A DNA stretch of 47,668 bases from Candidatus Nomurabacteria bacterium RIFOXYB1_FULL_39_16 (GTDB taxonomy: Bacteria > Patescibacteriota > Minisyncoccia > Phycocordibacterales > UBA9973): contig MFWB01000011.1 in the NCBI GenBank assembly GCA_001787205.1, positions 1 through 47,668 of the forward strand, read 5' to 3'. This document shows, one piece after another, positions 4,075 to 31,110 of the stretch. The number at the start of each line of letters is the position of its first letter. Position 1 is the first letter of the stretch. The translations under genes were made by a program, and so were the position numbers. The notes beneath the pieces are model-generated. The model did not search any database. It saw nothing but the letters and a program-made list of their open reading frames with translations, and was not told the DNA's origin.

Positions 4075-4107
4075 GTATTCTGAGCGAGGACTACCCTCGC
4101 TCACTTG

Positions 4108-10940: not shown

Positions 10941-11609
10941 TTACAGGTATCGGATACCTGGGAAAATAGTTTCCCCTCTTTGCTCTCTAATGATAGGAAT
11001 TATCTTTAAACATTCATTCTCAAAATTTTTATTACCCCCGTAAAAATCCAATAAATTATTAGCTTCATTTTTTGAAACTAAGTTAAAATTCATTTTTTCA
11101 TATTCTTTATCGCTAGCCATAATTAAACTATTTTTCTCCTTTGGAATATCGTGAATTAAATAATTTACATTCACATATGGAAATATCTTCAAAAAATATT
11201 GATCATTATCAATTAAATGCGATTTAAATTTGCCTTGAAATAAAGCTCCGCTTCTGTTGTAGACCTTATTAAAGTATCGCGCGTACCCGCCCGACAATCT
11301 TCTTAAAAATTCTGATATACCGCCGTCCACCTTTTGTCTTAAAATGAAATGAAAGTGATTTGGATTAAAACAATAGCATATAATAGAAACCAGCGGGCCT
11401 TCCCCTTTTTCTCTTCTTCTACAATGCCCACAATATAATTTATCTCTCAACGTGTCCCTCAGATTGCCTACAGGTAAAATAGTATTAAATTCTTTTACAC
11501 TTTGAATAAAACGATTGAGATCTTTTTTGCTCATAAAAATATCTCTTTTATCAACACCTCTGTTATATATATGATAGTACTCATCACTCACAAATGGATT
11601 TTTTCTCAT
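10941..11609 (-). mobile_element. REP-associated tyrosine transposase (RAYT, Y1/HUH family)
   Basis: YYHIYNRGVDKRDIF...HFHFILRQ...ARYFNKVYNRSGALFQGKFKSHLID is the typical TnpA_REP pattern; HUH motif in NPNHFHFIL; flanked by palindromes. Confidence 0.9.
10944..10960. repeat. REP-like palindrome CAGGTATC-G-GATACCTG, copy 1
   Basis: Encodes the last residues of the RAYT (PGIRYL) and abuts its stop codon. Coordinates +/-1. Confidence 0.85.
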
Positions 11610-11627
11610 AAAAATAAAAAAAATTAC

Positions 11628-11650
11628 TTACAGGTATCGGATACCTGTAA
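11628..11650. repeat. REP-like palindrome TTACAGGTATC-G-GATACCTGTAA, copy 2
   Basis: Same core, 19 bp upstream of the RAYT start codon. Confidence 0.9.
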
Positions 11651-11730
11651 CTTTGAATTATATTTTTTTAAAAACAGTTATATTATCTCATACGTATAGG
11701 AAAAAATAAATTTTTTATTCCTGTGGAAAA

Positions 11731-11757
11731 CCTTCCAGGTATCGGATACCTGGAAGG
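11731..11757. repeat. REP-like palindrome CCTTCCAGGTATC-G-GATACCTGGAAGG, copy 3
   Basis: Same core with longer arms (13 bp). Confidence 0.9.
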
Positions 11758-18134: not shown

Positions 18135-18218
18135 TGTATTATGTGGATAACTAGCTTTTTACACCAATATCCATAGACACATCTTATCATAATTTAATGC
18201 AAAATGCAAAGAAGATAA

Positions 18219-18290
18219 AACCCCTCCAACCTCCCCTTATCAGGGGAGGCGAATGGTTTCCCCCTGACAAGGGGGAATAAGGGGGGTTAA
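18219..18290. repeat. Composite palindromic element B
   Basis: CCCCTCCAACCTCCCCTTATCAGGGGAGG...TTTCCCCCTGACAAGGGGGAATAAGGGGGGTT, paired inverted hairpins; resembles element F in ftsK. Confidence 0.85.
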
Positions 18291-19318: not shown

Positions 19319-21568
19319 ATGGCAAAAAATGGAAATGGAAGGAAGGGTGATAAATACGAAAAAAAATTTACGAGTGGATTAAAAACGCAAACTAAACACG
19401 GAATCATCGCAGTTGTATTTTTTGTTCTAGCAGTATTCTTCCTGATGACCTACTTTGATATCGCTGGAGTGGCGGGTCTTTTTATTTTTGAAAAACTGGA
19501 ATACTTGCTCGGCGTCGGATATATCCTATTACCTACTCTCCTCGTCTTGCTCGGAAGTTCATTTATAAAATCAGAAGTGCCAGACATCGGATGGACTCGC
19601 GTCATCTCCGGTATTTTGTTTCTGCTCTCGGGTTTGGGGATGATAGACATCGCTTCGGGGAACCATTCCGGCGGATTTTTCGGAGAAATTTTATCTACAC
19701 CATTCGTCTCTCTGTTTGATGTATATGCCAGTCTCGTTTTCCTCGGAGCAATTTTAATAATTTCAGTTCTGATAATGTTTGACGCCAAGCTTTCCTTCGG
19801 TTCGCTTTTCACGAGAATCAAGGCATTGTTTACGAAGAAAGAAAAAGAGTTCACCTCTGATTTAAATGAAGATGAAATGGAAGAAGTGGAAAAAGTTTCT
19901 ACTCCCCTCCTCAATGAGGAGGGGGATGGGGGTGGTAATTCTAAAAAGAACCACCCCGCTCTAAAGAGCACCCCTCCTCAACAAGGAGGGGAAGAAGAAT
20001 TTGAACTCCCCAAGCTAAAAGCAAAAAGCTACAAGCTAAATACTAATTACGTTCCTCCCCCGCTTGATTTGCTTGAGGAAGATAAAGGTAAACCGAACAC
20101 CGGCGACATCAAGGCTAACGCGAATATCATAAAGCGTACTCTCGCGAACTTCGGCATTGAAGTGGAAATGGATGAGATAACTATCGGACCGACAGTCACC
20201 CGCTACGCGCTTAAGCCAGCCGAAGGAGTGAAGCTCTCCCGCATCGTGGGACTACAGAACGACCTCGCACTCTCCCTCGCGGCGCATCCTATCCGCATAG
20301 AAGCTCCCATCCCAGGCAAGTCTCTCGTCGGTATTGAAATTCCGAATAAATCCAAATCAATAGTCGGGCTCGCCACTCTCCTCTCCGATGATAAGTTCCA
20401 GAATTCTCCGAAGCCACTCACCATCGCGCTCGGACGCAATATTTCCGGCAAAGCGGTCTTCGGTAATTTGGCGAAGATGCCACACGCGCTCGTGGCCGGC
20501 ACGACTGGCTCAGGAAAATCGGTAACCATTCATTCTATGATTACTTCCCTTCTATATAGGAATGGCCCGGAAGATTTGAAGCTCATATTGATAGACCCGA
20601 AACGCGTGGAATTAACTCTTTATAAAAACATCCCTCACCTGCTCACGCCCGTAATTACTGAAGCAAAAAAGACTATTCTAGCCTTAAAATGGGCAGCCAA
20701 AGAGATGGACCGCCGTTACGATATATTAGAGGCGGAATCCGTACGAGACATAGAGTCTTATCATAGTAATGTTTGGGGCAAAAATAAGCAAAAGACCCCC
20801 TCCAGCTCCCCCTTGGCAGGGGGAGAGAATGAGGATACCTCCCCTGATAAGGGGAGGTCAGGTGGGGTTGATCGCCTGCCTTATATTGTCATCATCATAG
20901 ACGAACTGGCGGATATTATGAGCACTTACCCGAGAGAATTGGAAGCGGCCATCGTGCGTCTGGCACAGATGTCACGAGCAGTGGGCATACACTTGATACT
21001 CTCCACACAACGCCCAGAGGTGAATGTCATCACGGGACTCATCAAGGCGAACATCCCCGCCCGTATCGCGCTGAAAGTTTCTTCTCAGATAGACTCCCGC
21101 ACGATATTGGATACAGGCGGAGCGGAAAAGCTCTTGGGCGCCGGTGATATGCTCTACTCTTCGGGTGAAGCTCAGCCAGAACGTCTGCAGAGTGCTTTCA
21201 TCTCCGAAGTAGAGGTGAAAAAAGTAGTGAAATATTTGGCGGATGCCTATGCGGACGAGGTGACAGAAGAGATAACCCTAACCGCGGGCTCTATCTCTGC
21301 CGATAAAAGCATTTTTGAGGCTTCGCTTGATGACGATGATATGGATGACGATGATGAAATGTATGAAGAGGCCCGAGCCTGCGTGATGGAGGCGGGAAAA
21401 GCTTCCACTTCTTATTTGCAAAGAAAATTGAAATTGGGATATGCGCGCGCGGCTAGACTGATGGATAAACTGGAAGAACGCGGAGTGATTGGTCCAGGAG
21501 ACGGCGCAAAGCCGAGAGAGGTGTTGGAAAAAGTAGAAAGAACAGAAGATGGGGAAAATGTGATCTAA
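19319..21568 (+). CDS. ftsK: DNA translocase FtsK/SpoIIIE
   Basis: N-terminal TM helices; PHALVAGTTGSGKSVTIHSMITSLL Walker A; LPYIVIIIDELADIM Walker B; C-terminal gamma wHTH (SYLQRKLKLGYARAARLMDKLEERGVIGP). Confidence 0.97.
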   Translation: MAKNGNGRKGDKYEKKFTSGLKTQTKHGIIAVVFFVLAVFFLMTYFDIAGVAGLFIFEKLEYLLGVGYILLPTLLVLLGSSFIKSEVPDIGWTRVISGILFLLSGLGMIDIASGNHSGGFFGEILSTPFVSLFDVYASLVFLGAILIISVLIMFDAKLSFGSLFTRIKALFTKKEKEFTSDLNEDEMEEVEKVSTPLLNEEGDGGGNSKKNHPALKSTPPQQGGEEEFELPKLKAKSYKLNTNYVPPPLDLLEEDKGKPNTGDIKANANIIKRTLANFGIEVEMDEITIGPTVTRYALKPAEGVKLSRIVGLQNDLALSLAAHPIRIEAPIPGKSLVGIEIPNKSKSIVGLATLLSDDKFQNSPKPLTIALGRNISGKAVFGNLAKMPHALVAGTTGSGKSVTIHSMITSLLYRNGPEDLKLILIDPKRVELTLYKNIPHLLTPVITEAKKTILALKWAAKEMDRRYDILEAESVRDIESYHSNVWGKNKQKTPSSSPLAGGENEDTSPDKGRSGGVDRLPYIVIIIDELADIMSTYPRELEAAIVRLAQMSRAVGIHLILSTQRPEVNVITGLIKANIPARIALKVSSQIDSRTILDTGGAEKLLGAGDMLYSSGEAQPERLQSAFISEVEVKKVVKYLADAYADEVTEEITLTAGSISADKSIFEASLDDDDMDDDDEMYEEARACVMEAGKASTSYLQRKLKLGYARAARLMDKLEERGVIGPGDGAKPREVLEKVERTEDGENVI
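19902..19992. repeat. Composite palindromic element E (inside ftsK linker)
   Basis: CTCCCCTCCTCAATGAGGAGGGGGATGGGGGTGGTAATTCTAAAAAGAACCACCCCGCTCTAAAGAGCACCCCTCCTCAACAAGGAGGGG. Confidence 0.9.
20794..20872. repeat. Composite palindromic element F (inside ftsK motor domain)
   Basis: GACCCCCTCCAGCTCCCCCTTGGCAGGGGGAG...CTCCCCTGATAAGGGGAGGTCAGGTGGGGTT; codes KTPSSSPLAGGENEDTSPDKGRSGGVD just before Walker B. Confidence 0.9.
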
Positions 21569-25052: not shown

Positions 25053-25092
25053 TCACCTCACCCCAGCCCTCTCCTTAATAAGGAGAGGGGGC
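25053..25092. repeat. Palindromic element G
   Basis: CACCTCACCCCAGCCCTCTCCTTAATAAGGAGAGGG. Confidence 0.9.
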
Positions 25093-25993: not shown

Positions 25994-26032
25994 GAACCTC
26001 ACCCTGCCCTCTCCTTATTAAGGAGAGGGTGA
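25994..26032. repeat. Palindromic element H
   Basis: GAACCTCACCCTGCCCTCTCCTTATTAAGGAGAGGG; contains the stop codon of the DUF559 ORF. Confidence 0.9.
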
Positions 26033-26377
26033 ATTTAATTCATTGATAATTTTCTTTAATACACTATCTATATTAACATTTACTTCATTATTCCAAAAAC
26101 GAATTACTTTTATACCAAATACAGATAAATAATCGGATCTTTCAATGTCATATTCTTTATTTTCAATATGCTGTGAACCATCAATCTCAATCGCCAACTT
26201 TTTTAACGGACAATAAAAATCCAAAACATACGGACCCACGGAATACTGTCTTTTTATTTTTAAACCTAACTGATTATTTCTTAATTTACCCCAAAGAATT
26301 TCTTCTTCCTTGGTTTGAGATCGCCTTAATAAAACACGCTTGGTTAAATTTTTTGTCTTATTATAGAAAACCGTCAT
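26018..26377 (-). CDS. DUF559 / Vsr-like endonuclease-domain protein, copy 1
   Basis: LRRSQTKEEEILWGKLRNNQLGLKIKRQYSVGPYVLDFYCPLKKLAIEIDGSQH...VIRFWNNEV. Confidence 0.85.
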   Translation of the reverse strand: MTVFYNKTKNLTKRVLLRRSQTKEEEILWGKLRNNQLGLKIKRQYSVGPYVLDFYCPLKKLAIEIDGSQHIENKEYDIERSDYLSVFGIKVIRFWNNEVNVNIDSVLKKIINELNSPSP

Positions 26378-26391
26378 ATGATGAATAAGCT

Positions 26392-26757
26392 CTACTGACT
26401 TTTAGTTGCAACCTCTAAAATATATCCATCTGGGTCTTTAAAATCTACAGTATAAGCGGTTTTGTTTTTGTAAATATAATCAACTGGACCCCTAATAATA
26501 TTTCCATTATTACTTATCAAGAATTCCGCCACTTTATCTACGACACTCCTAGATTCAGCAAGAAAACAAATATGACGTGGTCCTGCACTTTTGATAAACC
26601 CAAAAGGTTGTTCTATAAAATAAATTTTTGTTTCTCCATTACTAAACCCATTTTCATTTATCTTTTGCCAATCAATGACTTGAAATAGGTTTTCATAAAA
26701 ATTTAAAGAAACAGCAAGCTTCGAAACCCAGAATTCTATATGTTTTATTGTTGTCAT
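26392..26757 (-). CDS. VOC family (glyoxalase/bleomycin resistance-like) protein
   Basis: MTTIKHIEFWVSKLAVSLNFYENLF...YTVDFKDPDGYILEV; longer N-terminus in the ORF track is encoded by palindrome I. Confidence 0.85.
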   Translation of the reverse strand: MTTIKHIEFWVSKLAVSLNFYENLFQVIDWQKINENGFSNGETKIYFIEQPFGFIKSAGPRHICFLAESRSVVDKVAEFLISNNGNIIRGPVDYIYKNKTAYTVDFKDPDGYILEVATKSQ

Positions 26758-26766
26758 GTAATTTAT

Positions 26767-26809
26767 TCCCCTCTCCTTAATAAGGAGAGGGGTTGGGGGT
26801 GAGGTTCTC
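26767..26809. repeat. Palindromic element I (inverted relative to H)
   Basis: CCCCTCTCCTTAATAAGGAGAGGGGTTGGGGGTGAGGTTC. Confidence 0.9.
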
Positions 26810-28295
26810 AATCTTTTCTTAAAAACAAAGGTTTCTCGGGTTTTTTGTTGGCTTTAATTAACTCTTGGATTGTTTGAGAAGTTTCAGGCAATATTAGTTC
26901 TAACATCTTTACTATTTTATACAAACGAATAACCATATCGGAAATTAATTCTTTCCCTTTTTTCTCATCTATTTTTACAACTTTAAACGGTTCTGTTTCT
27001 TGGATAGATTTATCCAGTTCGCCAATTTTATCCCAGACAAAGTCCGTCGCTTGTTTGATGTCAAATTTTTCAAAAAAACTAAAATATTCTGTGAAATCTG
27101 TCTCCTCTCCAATCTCTGGACACTTTTCTAAATATTTTTCTGATAATGTAAGTATTCGTGAAGTTAAATTCCCCAACCCATTTGCCAATCCAGAATTATA
27201 AGCATCTTTAAAGCGTTCCATTGTGAAGGGACTATCTTCAAAGGAAGAAACTTCTCGCAAAAGGAAATAGCGGAGCGCGTCGGTGCCGTATTCCGCGACC
27301 AATCCCGTCGGATCTGCGACATTGCCCAAAGTTTTAGACATTTTTACTCCTCCATCCGCTGTAATAAATCCATTCACTACTATTTGATGTGTATTTTTTA
27401 CACCGGCAGCCATCAGCATCGCTTGCCACATTGCAGATTGAAAACGAGTATTATCTTTCCCACAATATTGCGTCGGGTTTCCATTCACCCAATATTTTTC
27501 AAACAAATCCTCCCCTCCTGCCTGAGGAGGGGTGCCCTTTAGGGCGGGGTGGTGGGAGTCTGGCCAACCTAGGGTAGAAATATAATTCGTAAGTGCATCA
27601 AACCACACATACATCACGTGCTCTTCATCCCCCGGCACCGGTATGCCCCAAGACATCTTTGATTTCAAGCGTGAAATAGAGAAATCTTGTAGCCCGCGAG
27701 AGACAAAAGCCTTCATTTCATTAAAGCGAAAATCGGGCACGACAAAATTCGGATTTTCTTCGTAAAATTTCAAAAGTTTTTCACCAAATTCACTATACTT
27801 GAAAAAGTAATTTTCTTCTTCAATAATTTCAAGCGGACGGCCAGGGTGCACGGGGCATTCATCATTTACGAGTTCGGAATCACTCTTCGTTTCTTCGCAA
27901 CCGACACAATATTTCGCTTCATAATTTTTCTTATAGATATATCCATTGTCATTCACCCTCTTCCAGAATTCTTGCGCGGACTTTATGTGATGTTTATCTG
28001 TCGTGCGGACAAAATGCAAAATTTCTTCATCCATCCCGAAAATTTTCACTGATTCTTTGAATTTTAAAAAGTTCTCGTCTACGAATTCTTGTGGCTGTTT
28101 GCCCTGTGAGAGAGCTTTCTCGTAAATCTTCATTCCGTGCTCGTCCGTGCCAGTGTTAAAAAAAACATCAAAACCTTGCAGTTTTTTGTATCTGGCGATG
28201 ACATCCGTCCGCACAAATTCCAGCGCATGCCCCATATGGAGGTCCGCGTTTACGTACGGAAGAGTCGTTGTAATGTAGAAACTAGTTTTTTTCAT
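26808..28295 (-). CDS. metG: Methionyl-tRNA synthetase
   Basis: FYITTTLPYVNADLHMGHALEFVRTDVIARYKKLQG; DGGVKMSKTLGNVADP. Confidence 0.97.
   Translation of the reverse strand: MKKTSFYITTTLPYVNADLHMGHALEFVRTDVIARYKKLQGFDVFFNTGTDEHGMKIYEKALSQGKQPQEFVDENFLKFKESVKIFGMDEEILHFVRTTDKHHIKSAQEFWKRVNDNGYIYKKNYEAKYCVGCEETKSDSELVNDECPVHPGRPLEIIEEENYFFKYSEFGEKLLKFYEENPNFVVPDFRFNEMKAFVSRGLQDFSISRLKSKMSWGIPVPGDEEHVMYVWFDALTNYISTLGWPDSHHPALKGTPPQAGGEDLFEKYWVNGNPTQYCGKDNTRFQSAMWQAMLMAAGVKNTHQIVVNGFITADGGVKMSKTLGNVADPTGLVAEYGTDALRYFLLREVSSFEDSPFTMERFKDAYNSGLANGLGNLTSRILTLSEKYLEKCPEIGEETDFTEYFSFFEKFDIKQATDFVWDKIGELDKSIQETEPFKVVKIDEKKGKELISDMVIRLYKIVKMLELILPETSQTIQELIKANKKPEKPLFLRKD
27508..27560. repeat. Palindromic element J (inside metG)
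   Basis: TCCTCCCCTCCTGCCTGAGGAGGGGTGCCCTTTAGGGCGGGGTGGTGGGA; encodes SHHPALKGTPPQAGGED. Confidence 0.9.
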
Positions 28296-30651: not shown

Positions 30652-30672
30652 ATGAATCATATTACCACAGAT

Positions 30673-30715
30673 AGCACCCCACCCCAACCCTCCCCTTGGC
30701 TAATGGGAGGGCGAA
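30673..30715. repeat. Palindromic element K
   Basis: GCACCCCACCCCAACCCTCCCCTTGGCTAATGGGAGGGCG; contains the DUF559 stop codon. Confidence 0.85.
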
Positions 30716-31065
30716 CTCAACCTACTAACAATTTCTTGTAAAACTCCACTTATGTTATTAGTTATCTCACTATTCCAAAAGCGAACTGTCTTTATATCTA
30801 AGGTCAAGAGATAATTATCTCTTTCTTGATCGTATTCTTTGTTATCAAGATGCTGTGCTCCATCCAATTCAATTGCTAGTTTTTTATCAGGACAATAAAA
30901 ATCCAAAATATAGGGTCCTATAGAATGTTGGCGTTTGAATTTAAAACCCAATTGAGCGCCACGCAAATATGCCCACAAAATAACTTCTTGCTGAGTTTGA
31001 TTTTTTCGTAACTCAACTCTCCGAGGTTTTAAAACTGGATGATTGTGGAGTATGGGCATTTGCAT
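30700..31065 (-). CDS. DUF559 / Vsr-like endonuclease-domain protein, copy 2
   Basis: LRKNQTQQEVILWAYLRGAQLGFKFKRQHSIGPYILDFYCPDKKLAIELDGAQH...VRFWNSEI; clear paralogue of 26018-26377. Confidence 0.85.
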   Translation of the reverse strand: MQMPILHNHPVLKPRRVELRKNQTQQEVILWAYLRGAQLGFKFKRQHSIGPYILDFYCPDKKLAIELDGAQHLDNKEYDQERDNYLLTLDIKTVRFWNSEITNNISGVLQEIVSRLSSPSH

Positions 31066-31068
31066 TTT

Positions 31069-31110
31069 CCTCCCCCTTCGCCAAGGGGGAGGCTAGGAGG
31101 GGGTGCTGGT
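31069..31110. repeat. Palindromic element L
   Basis: CCTCCCCCTTCGCCAAGGGGGAGGCTAGGAGGGGGTGCT. Confidence 0.9.

Follow-up and report, generated by a model that had tools for sequence, protein, structure and literature searches.

The 435-bp stretch at positions 30673-31107 of the DNA analysed here (the window, 47,668 nucleotides of contig MFWB01000011.1 from Candidatus Nomurabacteria bacterium RIFOXYB1_FULL_39_16) is interpreted as a minimal autonomous mobile element, in which a predicted DUF559 nuclease would act on the ends of its own unit; we give this reading a probability of roughly 0.6. That the nuclease gene and its palindromes form one unit, as a preliminary description of this DNA had supposed, and that such units are mobile, is well supported by sequence comparison, namely by the flanking of DUF559 genes with palindromes, by sharp unit ends and by empty sites in relatives.

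Structure of the unit and its relatives in the same genome

The unit is composed of an outer tail AGCACCCC, a palindrome, the DUF559 gene, a second palindrome and a second tail. Its left end is AGCACCCCACCCCAACCCTCCCCTTGGC and its right end, as reverse complement, is AGCACCCCCTCCTAGCCTCCCCCTTGGC; direct reading of the window returns both terminal sequences as they had been quoted in the preliminary description. The left tail (AGCACCCCACCCCAA, 30673-30687) and the right tail (CTAGGAGGGGGTGCT, 31093-31107), both given on the forward strand, make up a terminal inverted repeat, and similarity among related units elsewhere stops at these two boundaries. Palindrome K (30688-30711) has one stem mismatch and includes the stop codon (30700-30702) of the DUF559 gene, which occupies 30700-31065 on the reverse strand and encodes 121 amino acids, while palindrome L (31069-31092) has a perfect stem and lies 3 bp upstream of the start codon. 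The near-matching inverted termini around the ORF, the stop codon within K, the start a few bp from L and the location between an M16 peptidase gene and glyS (neighbours named from ORF reading) had all been described beforehand and were recovered here, with outer limits of 30673 and 31107.

Scored for inverted similarity, the two ends reach 34, while the highest of 2000 shuffles reaches 25. When 471 equally spaced pairs of 100-base stretches were scanned along the window, the top score belonged to the pair covering the unit (start 30601). Pyrimidine-arm palindromes are abundant in the window as a whole, with 30 when one stem mismatch is allowed versus 4-6 in first-order Markov resamplings (n=5). 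DUF559 is the sole gene of the unit, which has no Y1/HUH transposase gene, and neither end contains a GTAG or CGTC tag. An Rfam search of the window matched no RNA element apart from LSU rRNA, and no self-splicing intron was found around DUF559.

The encoded protein matches PF04480 over residues 17-116 of 121 (9.1e-33, 112.8 bits versus a gathering cut-off of 20.6). Its earlier assignment to the Vsr/restriction-endonuclease-like fold group agrees with the predicted structure and with profiles, both of which indicate a Vsr/EDxHD fold. Among solved structures, the AlphaFold2 model (pLDDT 91) comes closest to 3hrl (E 2e-7) and to 3r3p, the homing endonuclease I-Bth0305I (E 7e-4, TM 0.64 on query length), with Vsr (1vsr) lower in the match list. 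A sequence profile search against the PDB, in which matches with E > 0.03 were taken as chance, gave 3hrl at 3e-34 and 3r3p at 2e-4, and homing endonuclease families in PHROGs match at 1e-6 and 1e-3. D55, E66, D68 and H72, which we take to be the catalytic residues, are invariant in 52 DUF559 sequences. A function in anti-phage defence was considered and rejected, as PADLOC gives weak nuclease-domain matches alone (DpdF 2.5e-6, mREase_II 1.1e-4).

A profile search of the 762,513-base assembly found PF04480 matches at five places, and all five DUF559 genes have pyrimidine-arm palindromes on each side, with the arms CCTCCCC..GGGGAGG, CCCCTCC..GGAGGGG and CCTCTCC..GGAGAGG; in one of these units (L001) both palindromes share one orientation. 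The other four proteins are only 32-55% identical to that of the 30673-31107 unit, and the copies therefore appear to be old, distinct lineages and not the product of a single recent burst. A second unit in the window lies between metG and tatD (25998-26806, reverse strand, outer limits approximate) and comprises a palindrome (26007-26029), a DUF559 gene (26018-26377), a Glyoxalase/VOC gene (26392-26811) and another palindrome (26768-26792), with tails outside. Its upstream palindrome is about 390 bp from the DUF559 gene, with the Glyoxalase gene included in the unit.

Gene-less elements are also present in the window. A solo palindrome with an outward CACCTCACCCC tail, of the type of the 25998-26806 unit, is found at 25053-25089, and two inverted doublets with the order tail-palindrome-palindrome-tail lie at 18214-18290 and 20796-20873 (outer limits approximate). 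A further solo palindrome, accompanied by a second hairpin and a GGGGTGGT tail and of the type of a unit on contig C10, lies at 27498-27553 within the metG frame, where it is translated in frame as HHPALKGTPPQAGGEDL; the closest relative, G039, differs at this place. Rickettsia palindromic elements are likewise in-frame and translated. Second hairpins between the main palindrome and the tail were observed in units L001, L004 and L013 and in solos L183 and L187, where their sequence is highly variable and their pairing is kept.

Association of palindromes with DUF559 genes and occupancy of sites

The palindromes lie preferentially at DUF559 genes, a point that the preliminary description had put forward for checking. 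With flanking palindromes scored at up to 150 bases from an ORF, 59 of 75 non-redundant DUF559 ORFs in the family sample (full-length matches in 74 loci from the upper part of the match list) have palindromes on both sides, nine on one side and seven on neither. The corresponding numbers are 11, 99 and 148 for 258 control ORFs, i.e. other ORFs with 100 aa or more from the 40 longer stretches, with 35 more left out as too near an edge; eight of the 11 two-sided controls have a DUF559 gene no more than 112 bp away. A multi-phylum sample of 80 loci, two of them without an ORF and seven too near a contig end, left 71 to be scored, and here palindromes flank the DUF559 ORF on both sides in 45, on one side in 20 and on neither in six, against both sides in 10 of 220 controls. 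Inverted repeats beyond those of shuffles are present at 33 of the 71 DUF559 ORFs and at 11 of the 220 controls.

The full architecture is found on Deinococcus plasmids, where DUF559 occupies three different places of the hpa operon in three species, and in a unit on a Pseudanabaena plasmid. Neisseria gonorrhoeae NGO0050, the gene matching the solved structure 3hrl, adjoins such repeats, and Escherichia coli ycjD has downstream palindromes, one bearing a GGTTAGGGTGAGGGG tail. DUF559 loci of Azospirillum, Photobacterium and one Synechocystis B12 plasmid have a palindrome on a single side only, and a locus on a Pseudomonas aeruginosa plasmid has none on either side. The two palindromes upstream of DUF559 in Azospirillum (L104, L306-L309) vary between strains and stay near reverse complements, which suggests concerted change of the two copies.

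Among 195 compared pairs of units having both palindromes, 25 lose their similarity at 0-30 bp beyond each of the two palindromes (median 16 and 13 bp) and only four remain similar past both ends; in the remaining pairs similarity breaks off within the unit on one side or both, or continues past one side. Units of the AGCACCCC lineage lie between glyS and M16 (G000, G105 and G043), beside M16 (G092), beside secD (G115 and G097) and between metG and tatD (G085), these neighbours being named by reading ORFs and not by family search. Within a unit, the left and right ends are more alike (17.4) than are the ends of different units (7.8), and protein relatedness is correlated with end relatedness (Mantel r = 0.52, 0 of 999 permutations). 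Between unit ends, the outer 14 bp match at 3.58, compared to at most 1.57 in shuffles, and match more than the inner 14 bp do (p = 8e-4). A crude count of the outward-tail motif gave 39 outward versus 18 inward of 59 on the left side and hardly separated the two directions on the right (32 versus 28).

Relatives in which the M16-glyS junction is empty, as the preliminary description had proposed to seek, are common. Reading of the junctions in the best 30 matches among genus loci gave three with a palindrome-bounded DUF559, 14 with abutting genes, 10 with other DNA lacking a palindrome and three in which M16 is not adjacent. The junction is empty in G039 (glyS 87% identical), where TCACCACCCCC may, from its sequence, be the scar of another palindrome type. 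Four junctions (L039, L045, L049 and L051) contain small genes of other kinds that look Nudix-like on inspection and have no palindromes, and the presence of such genes in relatives indicates that the junction often takes in foreign genes. The metG-tatD junction, read in the same way at 30 loci, has DUF559 in five, abutting genes in 16 and other genes in two, with three not parsed; gene-less elements account for one single tail-palindrome-tail, two inverted doublets and one decayed single. Because both tails are kept, these gene-less elements seem to have arisen from units by internal deletion, which makes them comparable to MITEs.

Inspection of several units by eye revealed no target-site duplication, the empty sites being too diverged for proof. 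At 21 syntenic places compared with G039, of which 14 were aligned, solos L183, L199 and L201 are absent from the relative; its intergenic DNA is too diverged to show duplications, and some places hold other short inserts. In E. coli, ycjD adjoins sapF in 3365 of 5426 genomes and is found at one place per genome, and so some DUF559 copies look settled. The laboratory strain CJ236 carries ycjD, as does K-12, and in one strain a deletion of about 106 bp extends into the gene. No clean empty site of ycjD was found in E. coli; the two ycjD-negative strains that were read (L310 and L312) carry an efflux-pump insertion, with an RND efflux operon and a TetR regulator upstream of fabI replacing ycjD.

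Palindrome load also follows DUF559 at the level of whole genomes, in counts that include the palindromes of the DUF559 units themselves. A scan of 119 family genomes for CTCCCCN{2,8}GGGGAG (118 compared, G000 left out) found at least four copies in 27 of 43 genomes with a full DUF559 (E below 1e-20) versus 1 of 75 without, and when CTCTCCN{2,14}GGAGAG was added at least six copies were found in 36/43 and 4/75, respectively. In a phylum sample of 143 genomes, with G000 and one congener left out and a full DUF559 defined by E below 1e-18, at least four palindromes are present in 13 of 24 genomes with DUF559 versus 11 of 119 without. Some genomes are rich in palindromes and lack a full DUF559, among them G081 with 22 copies. 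The suggestion that solo palindromes are non-autonomous offspring of the nuclease units is supported in part. It is favoured by this load and by the gene-less singles and doublets of the metG-tatD junction, but the expected match between solos and local DUF559 termini was not obtained, since at a coarse level the class of the solos did not follow that of the sampled resident units (p = 0.37, 0.46).

Candidate mechanism and alternative explanations

In the proposed mechanism, terminal inverted repeats, each a C-rich tail of about 15 bp plus a palindrome, enclose a lone DUF559 gene of the Vsr/EDxHD fold. The nuclease would recognise the palindromic ends, probably extruded as hairpins, and would cut there, after which the unit might be copied or rejoined elsewhere by host repair. 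If its two ends paired, a unit could collapse to a solo palindrome, and solos could be moved in trans. That DUF559 cuts or spreads the hairpins, as first suggested in the preliminary description, we infer from its fold and its co-occurrence with them.

A homing or retention nuclease, modelled on free-standing homing endonucleases, is the main alternative, though an unlikely one. DUF559 would cut alleles without the unit (or without its solo palindromes), recombination with an occupied copy would refill them, and the palindromes would be target and recombination ends, not transposon ends. The closest characterised fold is indeed that of a homing endonuclease, I-Bth0305I, and the accessible part of PMC9403480 counts a DUF559 gene among the EDxHD homing family. 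The glyS-M16, metG-tatD and secD junctions are repeatedly occupied across genomes, sometimes by differently tailed units, and the 30673-31107 unit is itself flanked by TCACCACC and GTGGTAA stretches that resemble remnants of another palindrome type. However, many unrelated loci carry units and solos, and no palindrome at all is present at most of the empty junctions; the spread therefore cannot result solely from copying into homologous sites that are already occupied. Furthermore, the DUF559 domain fills so much of the 121-residue protein that there is little room for the extra DNA-binding parts with which such enzymes are described in the accessible part of PMC3943268, and the Rfam search found no intron in the window.

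It is also conceivable, albeit improbable, that another enzyme, of the RAYT-type Y1 class or otherwise, mobilises the ends and that DUF559 is a cargo nuclease. TnpB is a cargo nuclease of this kind in IS200/IS605. The genome that carries the unit has six Y1_Tnp matches, the Glyoxalase gene shows that one unit can hold a further gene, and the GGGGWSAS terminal inverted repeats around TIRYT genes, as given in the accessible part of Di Nocera 2013 (PMC3733652), are matched by some tails here that read GGGGTGAG. Against this, Y1 genes bear their own, other palindromes, and none of 34 (from 36 loci, one without a parsed ORF and one at an edge) is bounded on both sides by the pyrimidine-arm type. 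At least four palindromes are present in two of four genomes with DUF559 and no Y1, one of them having 23, but in only 1 of 40 with Y1 and no DUF559. A RAYT or Y1 enzyme is therefore disfavoured as the mobiliser. It nevertheless counts against the autonomous-element reading that any host enzyme could do the moving.

A RAYT-type Y1 gene lies in the window at 11169-11390 on the reverse strand, with its own palindrome CAGGTATCGGATACCTG, unlike those of DUF559, near 11626-11650 and 11728-11757; the five further Y1 matches are elsewhere in the genome. Solo palindrome TGAGCGAGGACTACCCTCGCTCA (4081-4103 of the window, L177) has exactly the sequence found at the two ends of a Y1 gene of contig C16 and, judged by that identity, is a solo copy, REP-like in kind, belonging to a resident RAYT unit.

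An immobile Vsr-like repair nuclease, around which terminators or fragile sites have gathered by chance, is already disfavoured and highly improbable: the DUF559-containing VsrA of Caulobacter has been proposed as a mismatch-repair endonuclease (accessible part of PMC12907096), but sharp unit ends at unrelated loci, empty sites, the inverted identity of the ends and gene-less elements missing at syntenic places of a relative all argue against it.

If the autonomous element reading is extended beyond this lineage, the chances are about even that a pan-bacterial and unrecognised class of mobile DNA has DUF559 proteins as its enzymes, its members being palindrome-ended, moved by a single Vsr-fold nuclease without a transposase and the source of many scattered pyrimidine-arm repeats. 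The repeats that flank E. coli ycjD and N. gonorrhoeae NGO0050 would belong to this class. The DUF559 family is very widespread and its function is not agreed upon; nor is a mobiliser known for many of the short palindromic repeats of bacteria, as is stated for CGTC REPs in the accessible part of Di Nocera 2013 (PMC3733652). If the two are consistently paired, both questions would find an answer. The pairing would also represent a single-gene mobile system of 121 residues whose nuclease is of the homing type, and which would stand as a minimal case midway from homing endonucleases to transposons. A literature search that covered few subscription papers and no bioRxiv preprints found no description of palindrome-bounded DUF559 genes, and an earlier description is possible.

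Comparison with known systems

DUF559 units resemble REP/RAYT systems (REPtron, REPIN) in having a small gene between inverted palindromes, in their patchy presence and in their dispersed gene-less copies, which occur as singles and inverted doublets. Unlike those systems, they have no HUH/Y1 transposase and no GTAG or CGTC tag in their ends, and true RAYT-type genes coexist here with other palindromes. The likeness to RAYTs would thus be one of functional role only, with an unrelated enzyme that appears closer to a homing endonuclease. The EDxHD/Vsr-fold enzyme I-Bth0305I shares the catalytic fold (TM 0.64) and presence or absence at fixed sites, whereas DUF559 is without an intron, intein or attached DNA-binding part, is bounded by palindromes and is found at many loci.

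In fungal mitochondria, double-hairpin elements and GC clusters are G+C-rich hairpins dispersed alongside endonuclease genes; they differ in being mitochondrial and in having no fixed gene between the hairpins. Small mobile repeats in cyanobacteria were reportedly described by Elhai in 2008. Among the tails of the window, GGGGTGAG of the second unit fits the GGGGWSAS motif and GGGGTGCT of the 30673-31107 unit does not. As far as the accessible part of Di Nocera 2013 (PMC3733652) goes, the DUF559 units are akin to the TIRYT/TIRtron system in their inverted ends, some tails of which have a motif like GGGGWSAS, and in solos that are single, double or grouped, and differ from it in that the TIRYT enzyme is a tyrosine transposase.
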